In this document: positions 782-7,553 of the stretch, in pieces | How the letters are laid out: each line of letters starts with the position of its first letter | Position numbering within the stretch: the stretch's first letter is position 1 | DNA from: Candidatus Aenigmatarchaeota archaeon | GTDB lineage: Archaea > Aenigmatarchaeota > Aenigmatarchaeia > QMZS01 | Assembly (NCBI GenBank): GCA_016932615.1 | Contig: JAFGCN010000013.1 | Span: 1 to 7,553 of the forward strand | Direction of reading: 5' to 3' | DNA: 7,553 bases | Notes under the pieces: generated by a model | What the model was told of the DNA's origin: nothing | What the model saw: the letters and a program-made list of their open reading frames with translations, nothing else | Database searches by the model: none | Program-made: the position numbers and the translations under genes

Positions 782-2059
782 ATGGATTTGGAGCCGCTCT
801 TGAACCCAAAAAGCATTGCCGTAGTCGGCGCTTCGAGAAACAAGCAGAAAGTGGGCAGCATAATTCTCAAAAACCTGATGCACTTTCACGGAAAGCTCTA
901 CCCGGTCAACCCAAACACGAGGCATATATTCGGGCACCAGTGCTACCCAAGCGTCGAGTCAATAGGAAAGCCCGTCGATATGGCAGTAATCGCCATAAGG
1001 GCAGAGTTTATCCCGCAGATGTTGAGAAACGCAGAAAACCTCAAGACGGCAGTCATAATTTCAAGCGGCTTTTCAGAGGTCGGAAATTACAAGCTTAAAG
1101 ACGCAGTTCTTGCGGCGGCAAGAGAAAATGATATCCGGCTTCTTGGCCCTAACTGCATCGGCATACAGGTCCCTTCAAGGGAACTTAACGCAACCTTCAT
1201 GCGTCCCGCTCTAAATGGAGAGTATGCCCTTATTTCCCAGTCTGGCGCCATCTGCTCGTCCATAATCGACTGGAGCATCAGCCATAAGCTGGGCTTCTCC
1301 AAGATAATCTCTGTCGGAAACGCTTATGATCTGTCCTTTCCCGAGCTGATAAGCTATCTTGAAACAGACCGAAGCACGCAGAAGATTATCATGTATATCG
1401 AGGGGCTTAGCGACGGAAAGGCCTTCATTGAAGCGGCAAAGAAATCAAAGAAGCCGATTTATGCGCTTAAAGTCGGAAAGACCGAAGCGGGAATAAAGGC
1501 TGCTAAAACCCACACCGGCGCAATGGCAGGAAGCTACTCCATCTACAGGGATGTTTTCAGGCAGGTAGGGGTTACCGAGATGAAAAACCTAAAGGACCTG
1601 TTCCTTTTCCTCAAGATGAGCAAGCTGAAAAGAAAACCCGTCATTATCCTTTCGAATGCAGGCGGGCCAGCGACAGCAACAGCAGACCTGCTCTCTGAAG
1701 CAAACATTCCCCTAAAGAAGCTTTCTGGCGAGACAATGAAAAAGCTAAGCGCCCTTCTTCCCGAAAACTGGAGCCGCTCGAATCCTGTCGATATACTAGG
1801 CGACGCAACGCCAGACCGGTACGAAAAAGCCATGAAGATTCTATCAGGCGAAAAAGCAAATGTCTTAGTTATTCTTACGCCGCAGGAAATGACCGACCCA
1901 AGGGAAACCGCCCGGCGTCTTAGAAAATTCAAAAACCTGGTCTGCGTGTTTATCGGAGGAAAGGAGACCACAAGGGCCCGGCTCTTCTTAGAAGATTGCC
2001 ATGTCCCCGCCTTCGAGTTTCCAGAGCAGGCGGTTGATTGTTTGGGATTACTGAGATAA
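782..2059 (+). CDS. Acyl-CoA (acetyl-CoA) synthetase, ADP/NDP-forming, alpha subunit
   Basis: This family converts acyl-CoA, ADP and phosphate to free acid, CoA and ATP, the main energy-conserving step of acetate formation in many archaea. The 425-residue product has a CoA-binding Rossmann domain at the N-terminus (SIAVVGAS, 11-18), then GPNCIG (122-127), a succinyl-CoA-ligase-like domain (GEYALISQSG, 146-155) and the phosphohistidine loop KTHTGAMAGS (242-251), with His244 as the expected phosphorylated residue. The third domain carries SNAGGPATATADLL (291-304). The ATP-grasp beta subunit is not fused here and is not in the window, so it must be encoded elsewhere. The protein ends at FPEQAVDCLGLLR, in the family's last helix, and appears about 30 residues shorter than typical separate alpha subunits (from memory about 450-460). 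Its final codons plus stop are repeated twice downstream. ATG 782 is chosen because the conserved Rossmann start follows directly. The specific acyl substrate cannot be told. Confidence 0.9.
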   Translation: MDLEPLLNPKSIAVVGASRNKQKVGSIILKNLMHFHGKLYPVNPNTRHIFGHQCYPSVESIGKPVDMAVIAIRAEFIPQMLRNAENLKTAVIISSGFSEVGNYKLKDAVLAAARENDIRLLGPNCIGIQVPSRELNATFMRPALNGEYALISQSGAICSSIIDWSISHKLGFSKIISVGNAYDLSFPELISYLETDRSTQKIIMYIEGLSDGKAFIEAAKKSKKPIYALKVGKTEAGIKAAKTHTGAMAGSYSIYRDVFRQVGVTEMKNLKDLFLFLKMSKLKRKPVIILSNAGGPATATADLLSEANIPLKKLSGETMKKLSALLPENWSRSNPVDILGDATPDRYEKAMKILSGEKANVLVILTPQEMTDPRETARRLRKFKNLVCVFIGGKETTRARLFLEDCHVPAFEFPEQAVDCLGLLR

Positions 2060-2061
2060 AT
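2021..2061 (+). repeat. 3'-end repeat, copy A (in situ end of the acyl-CoA synthetase gene)
   Basis: This is the gene-attached copy of a three-copy direct repeat. It encodes P-E-Q-A-V-D-C-L-G-L-L-R-stop and runs two bases past the stop. It aligns without gaps to 4211-4251 with 37 of 41 identical bases, and its segment 2027-2059 aligns to 3061-3093 with 26 of 33 identical. Counts were made by eye from the sequence. Confidence 0.9.
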
Positions 2062-2080
2062 CCGCCACTTTCGACACAAC

Positions 2081-2090
2081 TTAAGGTTTA
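2081..2090 (+). promoter_or_regulatory. Possible TATA-like element for the amidohydrolase-like gene
   Basis: TTAAGGTTTA lies about 17-26 nt before the ATG at 2107, in the non-coding leader after copy A. The spacing fits an archaeal leaderless promoter and no Shine-Dalgarno sequence is present. The match to a TATA consensus is poor. Confidence 0.25.
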
Positions 2091-2106
2091 CTACTATGAA
2101 ATTATT

Positions 2107-3060
2107 ATGACTTTAGCCATAAACGATGCCCACCGCCACTTCGGCAGGAACAGCATTCACGGCTCCCTGGGCCGCCTGACTATCCCAAAGCTAAGATGCA
2201 CCTACAGTGGGCTTGTAAAAGACCTCGATAAATACAATATCAAAAAGAGCATTTTATTTCCACAGCCAGACCCATACGAAACTGGAAAAGACCTACTAAC
2301 CACAATTGCCGCCCTAAGCCTGCCCTATTTACTCTACAATCCTTGCGTGGAAACAATCCTGAGCGCTCAAGCCCTGGCACTGGGGGCAATTTTCCCACGA
2401 ATTTATGAAGACTTGAGCAGAAAGCCCCTGCGACCGGTCAATTACAAAAAGGCAAACCGGAAAATCTACGGGCTGGAAGATGAAAGGATAGATTTCATTC
2501 CCCTGGCAAACCACAATTTCAAGCTTTCCGACCTTGACAGCTTTGAAGGGTTCAAGGGCATAAAGTTCTATTATGGCGAGCCAACGGAAGGTCTTCTGGA
2601 ATATATGGACGAAAACAATCTGAATATGATTCTCCACCCTCCACCACAAAAGGCCAGAACTAAAGGAGTTTTCAGGAAAGTAGATGACGACATCTGGCAT
2701 CTGCCCAGCAATTTCCTGAAAACAGTCAACCGCTATGATGGAATCAAGTTCCAGGTAGCCCATCTTGCACGTGGTGATGAGCAGATAATAAATGCTCTAG
2801 GAAAATGCGAACACGATAATCTCTACACGGACAGCAGCGGCCTTACGTTCCATACGCTCAAAGCGTCCAGAAAAAATGCCGCAAAGATAATCCCCAGTAA
2901 TCCTGAACACGTTCTCTTCGGCTCCGACTGGCCATGGACCGATACTGGAAAAGAGATTGCATTCATAAATGGGCTAGAACTGGGCGAGAAAGAAAGAGAA
3001 AGTATTTTTTACAGCAACTACTTCAAACTCTGGGGTGACCGTGAGAAAGCTGTGCCTTAG
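2107..3060 (+). CDS. Amidohydrolase-like (Amidohydrolase_2 type) metal-dependent TIM-barrel hydrolase
   Basis: The 317-residue product has the layout of the Amidohydrolase_2 superfamily: DAHRH (residues 7-11, the DxHxH first-strand metal motif), GIKFYYG (151-157), MILHP with His177, VAHLARG with His219, and FGSDWPW with Asp274, followed by a closing YSNYFKLWG like the family's GNAxRLF end. These residues would build a mono- or dinuclear metal site for hydrolysis or decarboxylation of a small molecule; the substrate is unknown. There is no signal peptide, so it is presumably cytoplasmic. The frame is open upstream to a TTG at 2038 inside the synthetase gene, but ATG 2107 is preferred because it places DxHxH at the extreme N-terminus as in the family. 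The TAG stop is itself part of copy B of the 3'-end repeat. The gene seems unrelated to its neighbours and looks like accessory cargo. Confidence 0.8.
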   Translation: MTLAINDAHRHFGRNSIHGSLGRLTIPKLRCTYSGLVKDLDKYNIKKSILFPQPDPYETGKDLLTTIAALSLPYLLYNPCVETILSAQALALGAIFPRIYEDLSRKPLRPVNYKKANRKIYGLEDERIDFIPLANHNFKLSDLDSFEGFKGIKFYYGEPTEGLLEYMDENNLNMILHPPPQKARTKGVFRKVDDDIWHLPSNFLKTVNRYDGIKFQVAHLARGDEQIINALGKCEHDNLYTDSSGLTFHTLKASRKNAAKIIPSNPEHVLFGSDWPWTDTGKEIAFINGLELGEKERESIFYSNYFKLWGDREKAVP

Positions 3061-3093
3061 CGGGCGGTTGATTGTTTAGGGCTTTTAAGATAA
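3058..3093 (+). repeat. 3'-end repeat, copy B (displaced end of an acyl-CoA synthetase gene)
   Basis: Read in register with the synthetase, 3061-3093 encodes R-A-V-D-C-L-G-L-L-R-stop. It differs from copy A at 7 of 33 positions. From the Ala codon to the stop, all six differences are synonymous: Leu TTG/TTA, Gly GGA/GGG, Leu TTA/CTT and Leu CTG/TTA. The upstream amidohydrolase-like ORF ends on the TAG aligned with the Glu codon GAG of copy A. The copy is not part of any present-day ORF of useful length. Confidence 0.85.
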
Positions 3094-3098
3094 GTACC

Positions 3099-3120
3099 TC
3101 TATATAGTGGTATATAAATA
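3099..3120 (+). promoter_or_regulatory. Probable archaeal TATA-box region for a leaderless gene
   Basis: Two TATA-like strings, TATATA (3101-3106) and TATATAAATA (3111-3120), precede the ATG at 3131. The first is about 25-30 nt from that ATG, the expected distance if transcription begins at or next to the start codon. No Shine-Dalgarno sequence is seen. The element lies directly after repeat copy B, so this gene appears to carry its own promoter rather than depend on read-through. Confidence 0.5.
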
Positions 3121-3130
3121 TTTGTATATT

Positions 3131-4183
3131 ATGTCTCATGAAACTCTGCCTATGGAAGAACTCCCTGGAAGATACGACTATGGCTTTGTTACGCAGGAAG
3201 CAAAAGTCCCGGGAACAGGAGAGAAAATAACCACTGAGGTATCGCTGGACCACCTGGCATATAACCTGGTCCTTCCTGCCCTGGGAAGAAAAGTGGCCAA
3301 GGAACGATTTAGAGATATTATAAGAAATAACCTGTATTCCGTTGAGACTTCCAAAATACCCGGAGGCCACAATGGAGCCTATAATTCTTTAAAGAAGACC
3401 ATACGTGTAGACACTGAACTGGAAGGCACTCCACAGGAAGTGGCAAGCACGCTGTTTGCGGAAGGAGGCCACCTTTTTGCTGAAAATCTCTATAGGCCGG
3501 AAAATTTCATAATTGATGAATATTATGACCGTGTTGCCAAGCACATTGGGGAAGACTTATTTAGAAACACCAGATACGGATACTCGGTGGACACGTATCC
3601 AAACAATTTACCCAATGTTGCAGAAGATGCCAAGGCCATCAGAATAAGCAGAAATAATCTGGGCAAAATGCGGCTTTTTCTTGAGTCAGTATATAGCCAA
3701 GGCAAGCCGTTTCATGATCCGGACTTGTTCTCAAAAAATAAGGAAAAATGGAAGTCCCATATTTCCACATACCGGGCAGAGATAGCAACTCCAGAAGTGG
3801 AGAAAGACGTAAACCTTCTGGGGGAAGACTCCGAGTACCACTTAACTCACCTGGAGGGTTATTTCTTGGGAGACCTGCTTTTCAAGGAATTCGGGGCTGG
3901 AGCATTCACAGACCCCAGTAATTTGTTTTCAACGCTAGGGGAACTTCCCATAACAATCACTCAAATCCATCCAGACGGAAGCACTTCACGCAAAACGCTT
4001 AGGTACCCCATAGTGTCCGTAAATAGAAAGATAGAGCAAAAGATGAGCCCCGAAGCAAGAAAATCGTTGAAATACCTGGAGCGAAACATTCTGCCAGTCC
4101 TGCATTATTTAGGCAATATCCAGACAATCCACAGAGATTTTATCAGAGACTTGCAACGGACCGAAGAATGCTTAAGCGGGTAA
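3131..4183 (+). CDS. Unrecognised protein with a degenerate zincin-like AEGGH motif
   Basis: I do not recognise this 350-residue soluble protein. The segment TPQEVASTLFAEGGHLFAEN (100-119) has the helix pattern of a metalloprotease HExxH site, but Ala110 replaces the first zinc-ligand His, while Glu111 and His114 remain. A second conserved-looking stretch, HLEGYFLGDLLFKEF (240-254), contains Glu and Asp residues where a third ligand might sit in gluzincin-like folds. That suggests a metallopeptidase descendant that lost normal catalysis, or simply chance. No signal peptide or membrane segment is evident, and the C-terminal third is helical and charged. A GTG at 3107 could extend the frame by eight residues, but it lies inside the TATA-like region, so ATG 3131 is preferred. 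The gene is bracketed by copies B and C of the synthetase 3'-end repeat, which points to accessory cargo. Confidence 0.7.
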   Translation: MSHETLPMEELPGRYDYGFVTQEAKVPGTGEKITTEVSLDHLAYNLVLPALGRKVAKERFRDIIRNNLYSVETSKIPGGHNGAYNSLKKTIRVDTELEGTPQEVASTLFAEGGHLFAENLYRPENFIIDEYYDRVAKHIGEDLFRNTRYGYSVDTYPNNLPNVAEDAKAIRISRNNLGKMRLFLESVYSQGKPFHDPDLFSKNKEKWKSHISTYRAEIATPEVEKDVNLLGEDSEYHLTHLEGYFLGDLLFKEFGAGAFTDPSNLFSTLGELPITITQIHPDGSTSRKTLRYPIVSVNRKIEQKMSPEARKSLKYLERNILPVLHYLGNIQTIHRDFIRDLQRTEECLSG

Positions 4184-4186
4184 CCT

Positions 4187-4251
4187 GGAATGTCCCAGGG
4201 CCACTCGCGTCCACAGCAGGCAGTTGATTATTTGAGATTACTGAGATAAAT
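4187..4251 (+). repeat. 3'-end repeat, copy C (longest displaced end of an acyl-CoA synthetase gene)
   Basis: The core 4211-4251 matches copy A at 37 of 41 bases and encodes P-Q-Q-A-V-D-Y-L-R-L-L-R-stop in the synthetase register. Upstream, 4190-4210 still resembles the corresponding stretch of the gene (both start ATGTCCC), but with an indel of about one base that breaks the register. This copy is therefore a longer and more decayed gene end than copy B. The TAAATT at its end lies 21-26 nt before the next ATG and could double as a TATA-like element. Confidence 0.85.
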
Positions 4252-4272: not shown

Positions 4273-4932
4273 ATGGTCTCCACATCCCATATGCTTCTAT
4301 TTGAAGAGGAACCTTTACTGTTTGATCCCTACTTTACTAAGACCTCTCGATATGAGGGGCAGGGATATCTCGACAAGAAAGGCAGAGAGGCATACCTTAG
4401 CTGCGGCCCCCTCAATCCAACAAGATACACCGATTTGTGTGGCCCATACAAAGTGTGCCTCCAGGAACTACAAACCTCGGTCAATACAATCGTGGACAAA
4501 TCATTGTCAGACGGCTGCGAATACGGTTCTCTTATATTGAGTAAAACTTTACAGCCGGGACTGATAAAGGATATTTCATTTTTCGGGTGCGTAGGAGGCA
4601 TTTCTCCCGGAAGAATGAATTCTTCCGTCCTGAAAAATTATCCGGGATACAAGATTGGCATTCTTCACTCACATCCTACCGAAGACTTTCCCTCCCCACC
4701 CGATTTCACAACTTCCAGGAAGGTTCTGGTAGGCATTATACTCCCAAATGAAAAAAGACTCATATTCTATAAGATAAAGGCCCCTTTGTTTGATGATTTC
4801 ATGGGAGAATATGCTTCATTTTGGATGCGATCCTCTACGGAGCCATGGAAAGATGACCTCAAAAAATTCTGCCTTTCCGAAGAAGTGCCCCTGGACCCAA
4901 ATTACCAAATTTGCGTTCCAAACGCCAGGTAA
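4273..4932 (+). CDS. JAMM/JAB (MPN+) domain metalloprotease-like protein
   Basis: The 219-residue product has a full JAMM zinc signature: Glu83 in EYGSLIL, then LHSHP with His132 and His134, Ser141 and Asp144 in PSPPDF. In characterised JAMM enzymes, Glu, two His and Asp bind or activate zinc and water to cleave isopeptide or peptide bonds, typically removing ubiquitin-like or sulfur-carrier (SAMP/ThiS-like) proteins. All these residues are present, so activity is plausible. The domain occupies about residues 65-170, preceded by about 60 residues I cannot place and followed by about 50 charged residues with a WMRSSTEPW segment. No ubiquitin-like partner or E1-like gene is in the window. The start at ATG 4273 has no Shine-Dalgarno sequence and lies 23 nt after the copy C stop. 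The 3' end faces aglB, separated by the aglB repeat array. The natural substrate is unknown. Confidence 0.85.
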   Translation: MVSTSHMLLFEEEPLLFDPYFTKTSRYEGQGYLDKKGREAYLSCGPLNPTRYTDLCGPYKVCLQELQTSVNTIVDKSLSDGCEYGSLILSKTLQPGLIKDISFFGCVGGISPGRMNSSVLKNYPGYKIGILHSHPTEDFPSPPDFTTSRKVLVGIILPNEKRLIFYKIKAPLFDDFMGEYASFWMRSSTEPWKDDLKKFCLSEEVPLDPNYQICVPNAR

Positions 4933-4955
4933 AATTATGCAAACGCCCCAAGCAA

Positions 4956-5096
4956 TCACTTAACCTCGGGACTTGCCCAGTAATTTATTTAACCTCTGGG
5001 CTTGTCCTGAAAAACTACTTCGCCTCAGGACTTGCCCCATGACCTACCTAACTTCAGGGCTTGTCCTGTAACCTACTTAACTTCAGGATAGTCCTC
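4956..5096 (-). repeat. Tandem array of five 29-30 nt units made from the 3' end of aglB
   Basis: Reading the minus strand, the true end of aglB (5073-5096) encodes E-D-Y-P-E-V-K-stop. Four further units follow. They read R-T-S-P-E-V-R-TAG (5044-5067), G-A-S-P-E-A-K-TAG (5015-5038), R-T-S-P-E-V-K-TAA (4985-5008) and W-A-S-P-E-V-K-TGA (4956-4979). Linkers between units are 5-6 nt, giving periods of 29, 29, 30 and 29. The Pro, Glu and Lys codons vary synonymously and all three stop codon types appear. On the plus strand each downstream unit also has a partial dyad of the form GGxCTTGxCC. Apart from a short AT-rich stretch (4933-4955), nothing else lies between the JAMM gene and aglB. This is not a CRISPR: there are no spacers and the units diverge. 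Confidence 0.9.
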
Positions 5097-7553
5097 CTTC
5101 AGCTTTTCAAGATTAAGCTTGAACAGTTTTATCTCAGAGTTGGAATAGACCTTTTCGAAATATTCGAATCCCTCGCCCTCAAAGAAAAACATCCTCGTAA
5201 ACATCGAGTTCTCCGTCTGGGCAGGCATATAGATTACAAGCCGGAATGTTGGGTCGACCCAAAGAACGCCTGGAACCGGCGCGTCAGGGTAATCCAGCCG
5301 GACTGCAGTTCCGTTGTCATAGAAGATAAGCGCCTTTATACCAAGCCACATCCCATTCTGAAGAAGAAGCGGCTCGACCTTCTGCATTCCGTCTTTTACG
5401 GTGATTTTCAGGTAAAACGGGCCATATTCAAGGGCGGTTCCGTTCTCAAGCATAAGCTGCTTTTGTCCTGTAAGCCCGGACATTGAATACGGGTAAGCTG
5501 TTCCCTGGCCCTTAACAGGGTCCCAGTTGGAAAAGTAAGTCCACCAAGTCGATTTTCCAATCAGGTCGTTTGAGGCAAGGAAGTAGATTTCGGTGCAGTC
5601 TCCAAGGTACGACTCCAAAACTTTTGCCGCCTTTACCTCGTCAGAGGTATAAAGTGCGCCTGCCATGTCCTGCATCCTTGAAGTCACGCAGTACTGCTTT
5701 GGCGCGTCAGGAGTCCCGATAAGAGAGCAGTAGACACTGCTGTGGGTTCCATACGTGTCGCACCAGTCGCTAAGCCCCTCCTCGTCTATAAGGTAGCCCT
5801 GCCGATCCTTCATGCAGTCAAGCCCGTTCAAATCTTCAATCGAAGTAACCCTTTGGTTGTTCTGCGTTCCGCCATCGTAAACAGTCGTCCTTTCCGAAAG
5901 GGAAGCTATGAGGTAGCCAGGGTCCCAGTAAGTCGCAACTACCGAGCATTCAGCGGAATTGTTCTTGAGCCAAGACATCGAGGTAACCCACCCCGAAGTG
6001 GCGCCCGAGCCAAATGAGTTTGCAGACATTTCGTCTGCCTTGTAGATTGAAGTGTAATTGGCGTCGTTTCCAAGCACGAGCGCGTAAAGAAGGAAAACTG
6101 AAAACAAGGCGGCGATAATCCAGGACGCTTTTTTCAATAGGGCTTTATTGTCCCCGTAGTTTTCCAGCCGGAATATCGCGTCAAAAATAATCGCCACTGC
6201 AAGCCCTGCGCAGATTGCCATAGGAAGCGCCAGAAGCTGGGTGAACCTGACAGCCCATAAGCTCCCGTAAAGAGTCGGGGCAATCCAGATAAACATGAAA
6301 AAGAAGGTTTCGGGGTAGATGGATTTTTTCCCCAAGTTCTGGAAAAACAGGAACATCAAAAATATCAGGCCAAGAAGCCCGAACCCGAAAATCACAGGGT
6401 GGACCCTTCCTACAACCTCGCTGAATGACGCGCTCATCTCCTCGGAAATGGAAATCCACACGTTAGGGAAGATTCCCCCTTCGGCTTTTGCGGTCTGGAA
6501 GAAGCTTGTAACGCCGATAACCTGCTGAATCGGGTCTGGAGCTGAAAGGTTTGATAGCACATAAGGCATCGGATAGTAAGTTGCCAAAAAAGCAAGGAAC
6601 ATCAGGGCATAGATAAGCACATGGCTCTTGAAGAAGCCCATGCTGTTTTTAACTTTATTCTTAATGTCTGACCCTTCTGCCAGGAAAACATTGTAAACCC
6701 ACTGGAAACCAAAAAGCCCGGCAAAAAGCCAAGGCATATACGAGAAGCCCGACCAGACAAGGGCAAAAAGCGCCATCGAAACGCCGGCAAGAATCGCAAG
6801 GATTATTGGAGCGGGCTTTTTCCAGTTCTTTGTGTCGACGCGGTTATAAGCCGCCAGAAAGAGCGCCACGACAAGCATCGAGAAGAATACGACAAAGCAG
6901 TCCGTGTCAAGGTATCCTGCCATCGAACGGAATAGGAAAGATGGCGTAAAGCCCACGAAAAAAGCGGCAAAAATCCCCGCCTTGTTGGAATGAAGCTCTT
7001 TTCCTATCCAGAACGCCGGGAAAACTGCCAGCGCCGCAAAGAAAGGTGACACCCAGAAAAGGAACCGGTAAAAGTCAACCCCGTTTACGGCATGGACAAT
7101 ATTGTATGACCATGCGACGAAATAGGGGAAAAGCCCAAAGGTGAGCGGCTCGTATTCAGGGTGCAGCCGGAGCTGGTCATACTCCGGGATATTCCCATCC
7201 ACGATGTACTGCGCAAGCCGGGACCAGTAAAACGGGTCGTCCGCTCCAAGAAGGTACTGCTCATCAGCGGTAGCCATCCTGACCGAAAATGCGCCCCAGA
7301 ATATTAAAATAACTGCCAGAAGGGAGAAGGCAAGGGAAATCTTTTTCATGTGCCCTTCATTTGACCTTATCGCCTCGATAAATGGCTTTTTTGGCGTTTT
7401 GGCCACGTGCGGCTTTTCAGCTGCAGGGGTTTCCTCTGGCGCCTTCTCTTCCGCGGCCGCTTTTTCTGCTCTCGAATCGCTTTTTGCTTTCAAGGCTTTT
7501 GCCTGTTTATCAGAAACTGCAGTAGCCTTTGATTTCTTCGAGCGTTTTTCCAT
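5073..7553 (-). CDS. aglB: Oligosaccharyltransferase AglB (STT3 family)
   Basis: AglB transfers an oligosaccharide from a dolichol carrier to Asn in N-x-S/T sequons on the outer face of the membrane. The 826-residue product starts with a Lys/Ala/Glu-rich cytoplasmic tail of about 70 residues, then a first membrane helix (72-92) and the acceptor-side acidic motif GADDPFYWSR (103-112). A second acidic motif, GYLDTDCF (213-220), follows, and about a dozen hydrophobic segments extend to about 495. SISE (368-371) matches the SVSE/TIxE external-loop motif, and VRF (435-437) precedes the last helices. The C-terminal soluble domain contains TYWDPGY (541-547) in place of the canonical WWDYG sequon-recognition motif. 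The ATG is the final codon of the window, so a longer N-terminus cannot be excluded. It converges with the JAMM gene. Its last codons plus stop are repeated four times just downstream. Confidence 0.93.
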   Translation of the reverse strand: MEKRSKKSKATAVSDKQAKALKAKSDSRAEKAAAEEKAPEETPAAEKPHVAKTPKKPFIEAIRSNEGHMKKISLAFSLLAVILIFWGAFSVRMATADEQYLLGADDPFYWSRLAQYIVDGNIPEYDQLRLHPEYEPLTFGLFPYFVAWSYNIVHAVNGVDFYRFLFWVSPFFAALAVFPAFWIGKELHSNKAGIFAAFFVGFTPSFLFRSMAGYLDTDCFVVFFSMLVVALFLAAYNRVDTKNWKKPAPIILAILAGVSMALFALVWSGFSYMPWLFAGLFGFQWVYNVFLAEGSDIKNKVKNSMGFFKSHVLIYALMFLAFLATYYPMPYVLSNLSAPDPIQQVIGVTSFFQTAKAEGGIFPNVWISISEEMSASFSEVVGRVHPVIFGFGLLGLIFLMFLFFQNLGKKSIYPETFFFMFIWIAPTLYGSLWAVRFTQLLALPMAICAGLAVAIIFDAIFRLENYGDNKALLKKASWIIAALFSVFLLYALVLGNDANYTSIYKADEMSANSFGSGATSGWVTSMSWLKNNSAECSVVATYWDPGYLIASLSERTTVYDGGTQNNQRVTSIEDLNGLDCMKDRQGYLIDEEGLSDWCDTYGTHSSVYCSLIGTPDAPKQYCVTSRMQDMAGALYTSDEVKAAKVLESYLGDCTEIYFLASNDLIGKSTWWTYFSNWDPVKGQGTAYPYSMSGLTGQKQLMLENGTALEYGPFYLKITVKDGMQKVEPLLLQNGMWLGIKALIFYDNGTAVRLDYPDAPVPGVLWVDPTFRLVIYMPAQTENSMFTRMFFFEGEGFEYFEKVYSNSEIKLFKLNLEKLKEDYPEVK

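Follow-up and report, generated by a model that had tools for sequence, protein, structure and literature searches.

How small-genome DPANN archaea, which have little transposon or integrase equipment, gain single genes, toxin–antitoxin pairs and defence genes is poorly understood. A contig from a groundwater archaeon of the little-known Candidatus Aenigmatarchaeota (DPANN) raises this question in a concrete form: how did unrelated genes come to lie between repeated copies of the end of a synthetase gene? The window, i.e. the whole stretch of DNA that was analyzed, is the entire contig C13 with a length of 7553 bases; the genome comprises 1.26 Mb in 29 contigs and is 97% complete. For comparison we used a class sample of 156 genomes including the window genome, which has no congener in this sample; among named genomes no close relatives of the window synthetase were found.

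Repeated ends of the synthetase gene

The following features were assigned in the window:
2–745: uncharacterised gene
782–2059, + strand: host gene, intact, ADP-forming acyl/acetyl-CoA synthetase alpha-type, 425 aa (TIGR02717, E 4e-134; Succ_CoA_lig and CoA_binding Pfam matches)
2020–2061, + strand: copy A, the current gene end PEQAVDCLGLLR with stop codon and 2 nt (direct-repeat search; C-terminal motif P..AV..L..L common to class orthologues)
2107–3060, + strand: cargo 1, amidohydrolase-like, 317 aa from the ATG at 2107 (Pfam Amidohydro_2, E 1e-9)
3062–3095, + strand: copy B, putative displaced end AVDCLGLLR with stop codon (six differences from copy A, all synonymous)
3131–4183, + strand: cargo 2, orphan gene, 350 aa (no Pfam, NCBIfam, PHROG or PADLOC match)
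4210–4251, + strand: copy C, putative displaced end PQQAVDYLRLLR with stop codon (repeat search and comparison with class orthologues)
4273–4932, + strand: JAB/JAMM-like gene past the last copy, 219 aa (Prok-JAB, E 0.015, sub-threshold; HSHPTEDFPSPPD motif by eye)
4943–5072, − strand: four tandem, diverged copies of the aglB end, ∼29–30 nt each (second direct-repeat family, read from the sequence)
5073–7553, − strand: aglB/STT3-like oligosaccharyltransferase gene, convergent, running to the contig end (STT3, E 2e-28)

The direct-repeat search of the window yielded one family with members at 2020–2061, 3054–3095 (74%) and 4210–4251 (90%). Copy A corresponds to the last 13 codons of the synthetase, its stop codon and 2 nt; all copies lie on the + strand, with one unrelated gene per interval. 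Homology in copy B covers 3062–3095 and begins 1–2 nt past the stop codon of the amidohydrolase-like gene (3058–3060), and copy C begins 26 nt past the end of cargo 2 at 4183. A previous sequence-only reading of this DNA had described two downstream repeats of the synthetase end in the same orientation, an unrelated single gene between successive ends and an amidohydrolase-like ORF that stops at copy B: the repeat search bears out all of this, with coordinates right within 1–2 nt and a gap of 1–2 nt at copy B. The repetition is far above chance. Elsewhere in the window the synthetase tail reached a best local score of 32, whereas 300 first-order Markov shuffles averaged 8.9 and never exceeded 13.5. 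A degenerate pattern of the gene end matched three times in the 1.26-Mb genome, namely at copies A, B and C, and the reversed pattern yielded 0 matches.

Cargo 1 has 2 weak matches in the 155 other class genomes and cargo 2 is absent from them; no relatives of the window cargo were found in viral contigs. The sequence TATATAAATA is located ∼20 nt ahead of the start of cargo 2. The JAB/JAMM-like gene behind copy C could be either a native neighbour or an earlier cargo. The convergent aglB gene is followed by four more tandem copies of its own end with no cargo; these read xASPE[V/A][K/R] with the stop codons TAG, TAG, TAA and TGA, and alternate units match each other, as if a dimer had been duplicated.

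Further gene ends in the same genome

In 682 kb of the genome (54%, sampled in stretches) we compared the final 39 nt of every ORF with 80 aa or more with the 5 kb that follow it (739 genes). At a score of at least 18, seven gene tails recurred, whereas controls with mid-gene segments, reverse complements and gene starts against their upstream regions gave 0, 0 and 1, respectively. Tandem paralogues, which mimic gene-end repeats, were excluded here and in the related genomes (C9 137771, C18 53418, C7 40686, G8_C8, G045 33450); after removal of these and of within-protein repeats, four loci were left: the synthetase, metG, tatD and a gene for a 102-aa membrane protein. The ends of the latter three recur 0.4–1.7 kb downstream with an insert of 1–2 genes in between. 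Behind metG (MetRS, PF09334) a 199-aa orphan precedes the end copy and another gene lies beyond it; tatD (TatD_DNase) is followed by a 118-aa membrane orphan and a repeat identical at 20/20 nt; and the membrane gene (C9) is separated from its repeat (45/48 nt) by an AbiEi/AbiEii toxin–antitoxin pair, the sole cargo identified with PHROGs and PADLOC. The sequence-only reading had proposed a genome-wide search for such genes, and, in line with that proposal, several further host genes show the same anatomy.

Apart from short or ambiguous cases, an unbiased search for local direct repeats in the 682-kb sample turned up no further cargo gene flanked by a long non-palindromic pair, which places the signal in this genome at the 3′ ends of genes. 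In 300 kb of E. coli, used as a control, 0 of 292 gene tails recurred; this is consistent with rarity elsewhere, although the sample is too small for proof that the rates differ. As a side observation, the genes on both sides of the metG end copy (L047 13334–14612, C14) have H...NC motifs and look like papain/Ulp1-type cysteine peptidases by eye, with no Pfam match.

Similar loci in other Aenigmatarchaeota

Approximately 1.5 Mb from other members of the class were scanned. The gatB gene of G055 shows a 56-nt end repeat with a C39 peptidase gene and a 96-aa gene as cargo. Two host genes were found in G051: a 219-aa gene with a PIN toxin as cargo, and an S-layer/HTH gene with an M23 peptidase gene and two more genes. 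The repeat may also sit at a gene start: in G045 a ParE-like toxin and its antitoxin lie between copies of the start of the E2 gene, one copy located directly behind the E1-beta stop codon, and 48 of 49 bases are identical across the pair. Two islands in G051 repeat gene-end-like fragments with no intact source gene found in the genome, and the repeats flanking a LAGLIDADG gene in G032 and PIN or aspartyl-protease pairs in G045 are not clearly gene ends. The cassette model of the sequence-only reading is supported in part, namely in that small cargo would have entered one after another at the 3′ end of a protein-coding gene, leaving the host intact and an older end downstream; exclusiveness to 3′ ends does not hold in the relatives, which contain one clear gene-start case and others at intergenic or orphan fragments. 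Assembly from metagenomes is a caveat, yet the pattern recurs in independent assemblies and on contigs of 0.8–0.9 Mb.

No empty site was found in any close relative; the class sample contains no congener of the window genome, the window cargo is orphan and gene order is poorly conserved. Likewise, in an empty-site search at gatB and the E2 start across the genus and family of G055 and G045 the neighbourhoods were not syntenic.

Some details were noted in passing. The same ParE-like toxin–antitoxin pair is located just upstream of E2 in two species, G045 and G055 (L149, L153); G055 has no extra copy of the E2 start, and the congeners G081 and G083 have no ParE-like pair before E2. One of the G051 islands (L128 12016–13493, C2 92016–93493) contains three copies of a stretch reading EIKALL.NG.NGGK and a stop codon, with an in-frame 3-nt difference; between these copies lie a PIN pair and a DUF2283/DUF4258 pair, and no intact source gene for the stretch was found in the G051 genome.

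Divergence and edges of the copies

If the distal copies were decayed target duplications, mostly non-synonymous differences would be expected in them. Between copies A and B there are six base differences, spread over four codons, and all of them are synonymous (P about 0.007 under duplicate decay, in a simulation that already allows for synonymous change in the gene). Pooling nine comparisons gave P about 0.008; since the copy comparisons were picked after the data had been seen, these P values serve as guides. Differences between copies A and C are mostly at non-synonymous sites, and those of A/C, the AbiE locus and gatB are mostly neutral-looking. At one gene in G051 the distal copy ends with GAG TGA compared with GAA TAG, and another distal copy represents the C-terminal 56 residues of a homologue with ∼55% identity, with in-frame gaps. 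The synonymous A/B differences, the altered but retained stop codon and the copy of a diverged homologue together fit a reading in which some distal copies would be displaced ends of diverged alleles, joined through recombination, and not decayed target-site duplications.

The homology stops within ∼3 nt of the stop codon at the synthetase, metG, gatB and three gene-end loci in G051, and slightly before the stop codon at tatD and the AbiE locus. At one position copies A and B have G and copy C has R; in most class orthologues this residue is R or K. This agreement with the orthologues suggests that copy C is an older native end, and by sequence it is probably the oldest of the three; the order of insertion rests on little, as C is nearest to the class consensus at one residue.

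Recombinases and attachment sites

Profile searches found no integrase, transposase or other recombinase among the window genes. Two loci account for all tyrosine recombinases of the genome, a XerA-like gene and a split copy, on contigs C18 and C27; the copy on C27 (L054 1088–1896) is split into two ORFs and is probably a pseudogene. For the integron integrase IntI, matches to TIGR02249 in the genome remained below the cut-off and skip model positions 179–239 or 136–237, so that the IntI-specific stretch is missing. Near copies A, B and C and the aglB repeats, neither strand contains the attC core sites R″ (RYYYAAC) and R′ (GTTRRRY) as a pair spaced within 15–140 nt, and folding at the copies gave z-scores of 0.55, −0.03 and −0.48, i.e. 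no conserved fold. The ends of acs, metG, tatD, the membrane gene and gatB have no motif in common.

Several known element types were rejected on these grounds: an integron, as attC cores, IntI and a fold are all missing; a casposon, as the window contains neither a Cas1 or PolB gene nor terminal inverted repeats (the window repeat search found no inverted repeats at the interval ends); and an integrase-borne element, as no integrase is present in or beside the window units. The likeness to casposons or to integrase elements of tRNA genes that the sequence-only reading had drawn is thus not upheld: a common target motif, a recombinase in the window cargo and terminal inverted repeats are lacking, and the genome holds only the XerA-like gene and its split copy.

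A possible route of insertion and its rivals

The arrangement is real and recurring; the reading that suits it best is that gene ends were displaced serially at housekeeping genes of a DPANN phylum. With moderate confidence we favour serial, integrase-free insertion through homology of the gene ends. Imported DNA would carry the 3′ end of a host gene in the diverged version of a donor, followed by one or two cargo genes, and would recombine with the recipient gene inside the conserved coding end. The incoming DNA could be a circle that enters by a single crossover, the route suggested for Rhs tips (PMC2935791), or a linear molecule anchored by homology at just one side, which has been suggested for T6SS arrays (PMC5361080). 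The host gene would acquire the incoming end and remain complete; its stop codon would be followed immediately by the cargo, and farther downstream the displaced old end of the recipient would persist as a scar. A repetition of the event would produce the order gene, cargo, end, older cargo, older end, with copy A as the newest, then B, then C; the fragments between the inserts, in the order A, B, C, match a displacement-type layout. The genome contains a RadA homologue; the recombination would be homologous and RadA-dependent and the donors would be relatives, and a circular form and the order of events are likewise inferred. The repeats of 20–56 bp are near the lower limit for ordinary homologous recombination; in Sulfolobus acidocaldarius 30–50 bp of homology were enough for marker replacement (PMC5684531).

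The main rival is a site-specific recombinase acting in trans: the attachment site of a cassette would mimic the gene end, and a tyrosine recombinase, be it the XerA-like enzyme or one from a helper virus or plasmid, would integrate it in the manner in which tRNA ends are regenerated. In the window and at the same-genome loci the direct repeats do resemble attL/attR in that they restore the target gene's 3′ end, one site is used serially, the homology edges lie at the stop codon, and the XerA-like gene and its split second copy exist. However, without a motif shared by the five gene ends one enzyme would need many specificities, and this together with the lack of a recombinase in the window cargo, of an integron-integrase match over the cut-off and of a conserved fold at the copies makes such integration unlikely. 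We consider it improbable that the flanking copies are duplicates of one original target, made by insertion with long target duplication. Such an origin would suit the nearly identical E2 case in G045, and its toxin–antitoxin cargo recalls the restriction-modification genes in Helicobacter pylori (PMC1643837), but the synonymous-only A/B differences, the altered but retained stops, the 56-residue diverged homologue as a distal copy and edges that lie at the stop codon and not at random speak against it.

The aglB tandem ends, which carry no cargo, demonstrate that local duplication of gene ends does occur, and some tandem paralogues were found (excluded from the counts). Could the loci, then, stem from tandem duplication of a gene and its neighbour, with later deletions that spared only the ends and unrelated genes that arrived separately? 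Repeated independent deletions ending within 20–40 nt of the stop codon, plus independent gene gains at four genes, would be needed, and we regard this origin as very improbable.

On the favoured reading, insertion through gene-end homology, any conserved gene could become a hotspot, provided that plain homology is enough to make a gene end a landing site. If this is true, the sequence of past insertions can be read from the scars, and many orphans of such genomes would be recognisable as recent imports; the scars also provide a simple search signature for other genomes. A wider and rather doubtful extension is that Aenigmatarchaeota have a general integrase-free gene capture that uses short coding ends, those of ordinary genes, as addresses: excised circles of cargo and gene end might move between cells and re-enter any genome that has an allele of the gene in question, spreading toxin–antitoxin pairs, defence genes, peptidases and orphans.

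Relation to known systems

The displacement logic is already known for Rhs and T6SS genes; here it would operate at housekeeping genes. C-terminal displacement in Rhs genes, for which homologous recombination with a circular intermediate has been proposed (Jackson et al. 2009, PMC2935791), likewise adds new 3′ material at an intact gene; in successive rounds the old end, together with part of the core gene, is shunted downstream. In Rhs the variable tip of the gene itself changes, whereas here the housekeeping host keeps its product, the fragment comprises only ∼7–20 codons and the cargo consists of separate genes. In the T6SS effector–immunity arrays of Vibrio cholerae, for which homology-facilitated illegitimate recombination has been proposed (Kirchberger et al. 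2017, PMC5361080), each new homology-anchored insertion also moves the earlier genes, together with the 3′ end of the old gene, farther downstream; there the cargo is functionally tied to the host gene, whereas here it is unrelated. Insertion with long target duplication, described from a comparison of H. pylori strains (Nobusato et al. 2000, as cited in PMC1643837), resembles our loci in small selfish or defence modules between direct host repeats with no transposase; it differs in that some copies here would be diverged coding ends and not duplications. Integron cassette arrays also consist of single-gene units in a one-direction row, each followed by a related short site, and a survey of archaeal arrays lists attC sites in Aenigmatarchaeota (PMC9668308); unlike these, our loci have no attC core sites and no IntI, and the sites differ from locus to locus.

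Further repeats

Two other kinds of repeats were recorded. The G032 LAGLIDADG-type gene (L138 7758–8649, C16) lies between two 41-nt repeats that are identical at 39/41 positions, downstream of an ORF that resembles the DNA polymerase II large subunit by eye. A palindromic motif, GTTCACGTGAAC / GAAGTTCACGTGAAC, is present in many intergenic copies at L038 1390–3612 (C4) and L079 13793–14570 (G008 C5), i.e. in two genera of the same family; these palindromes are possibly regulator or replication sites.
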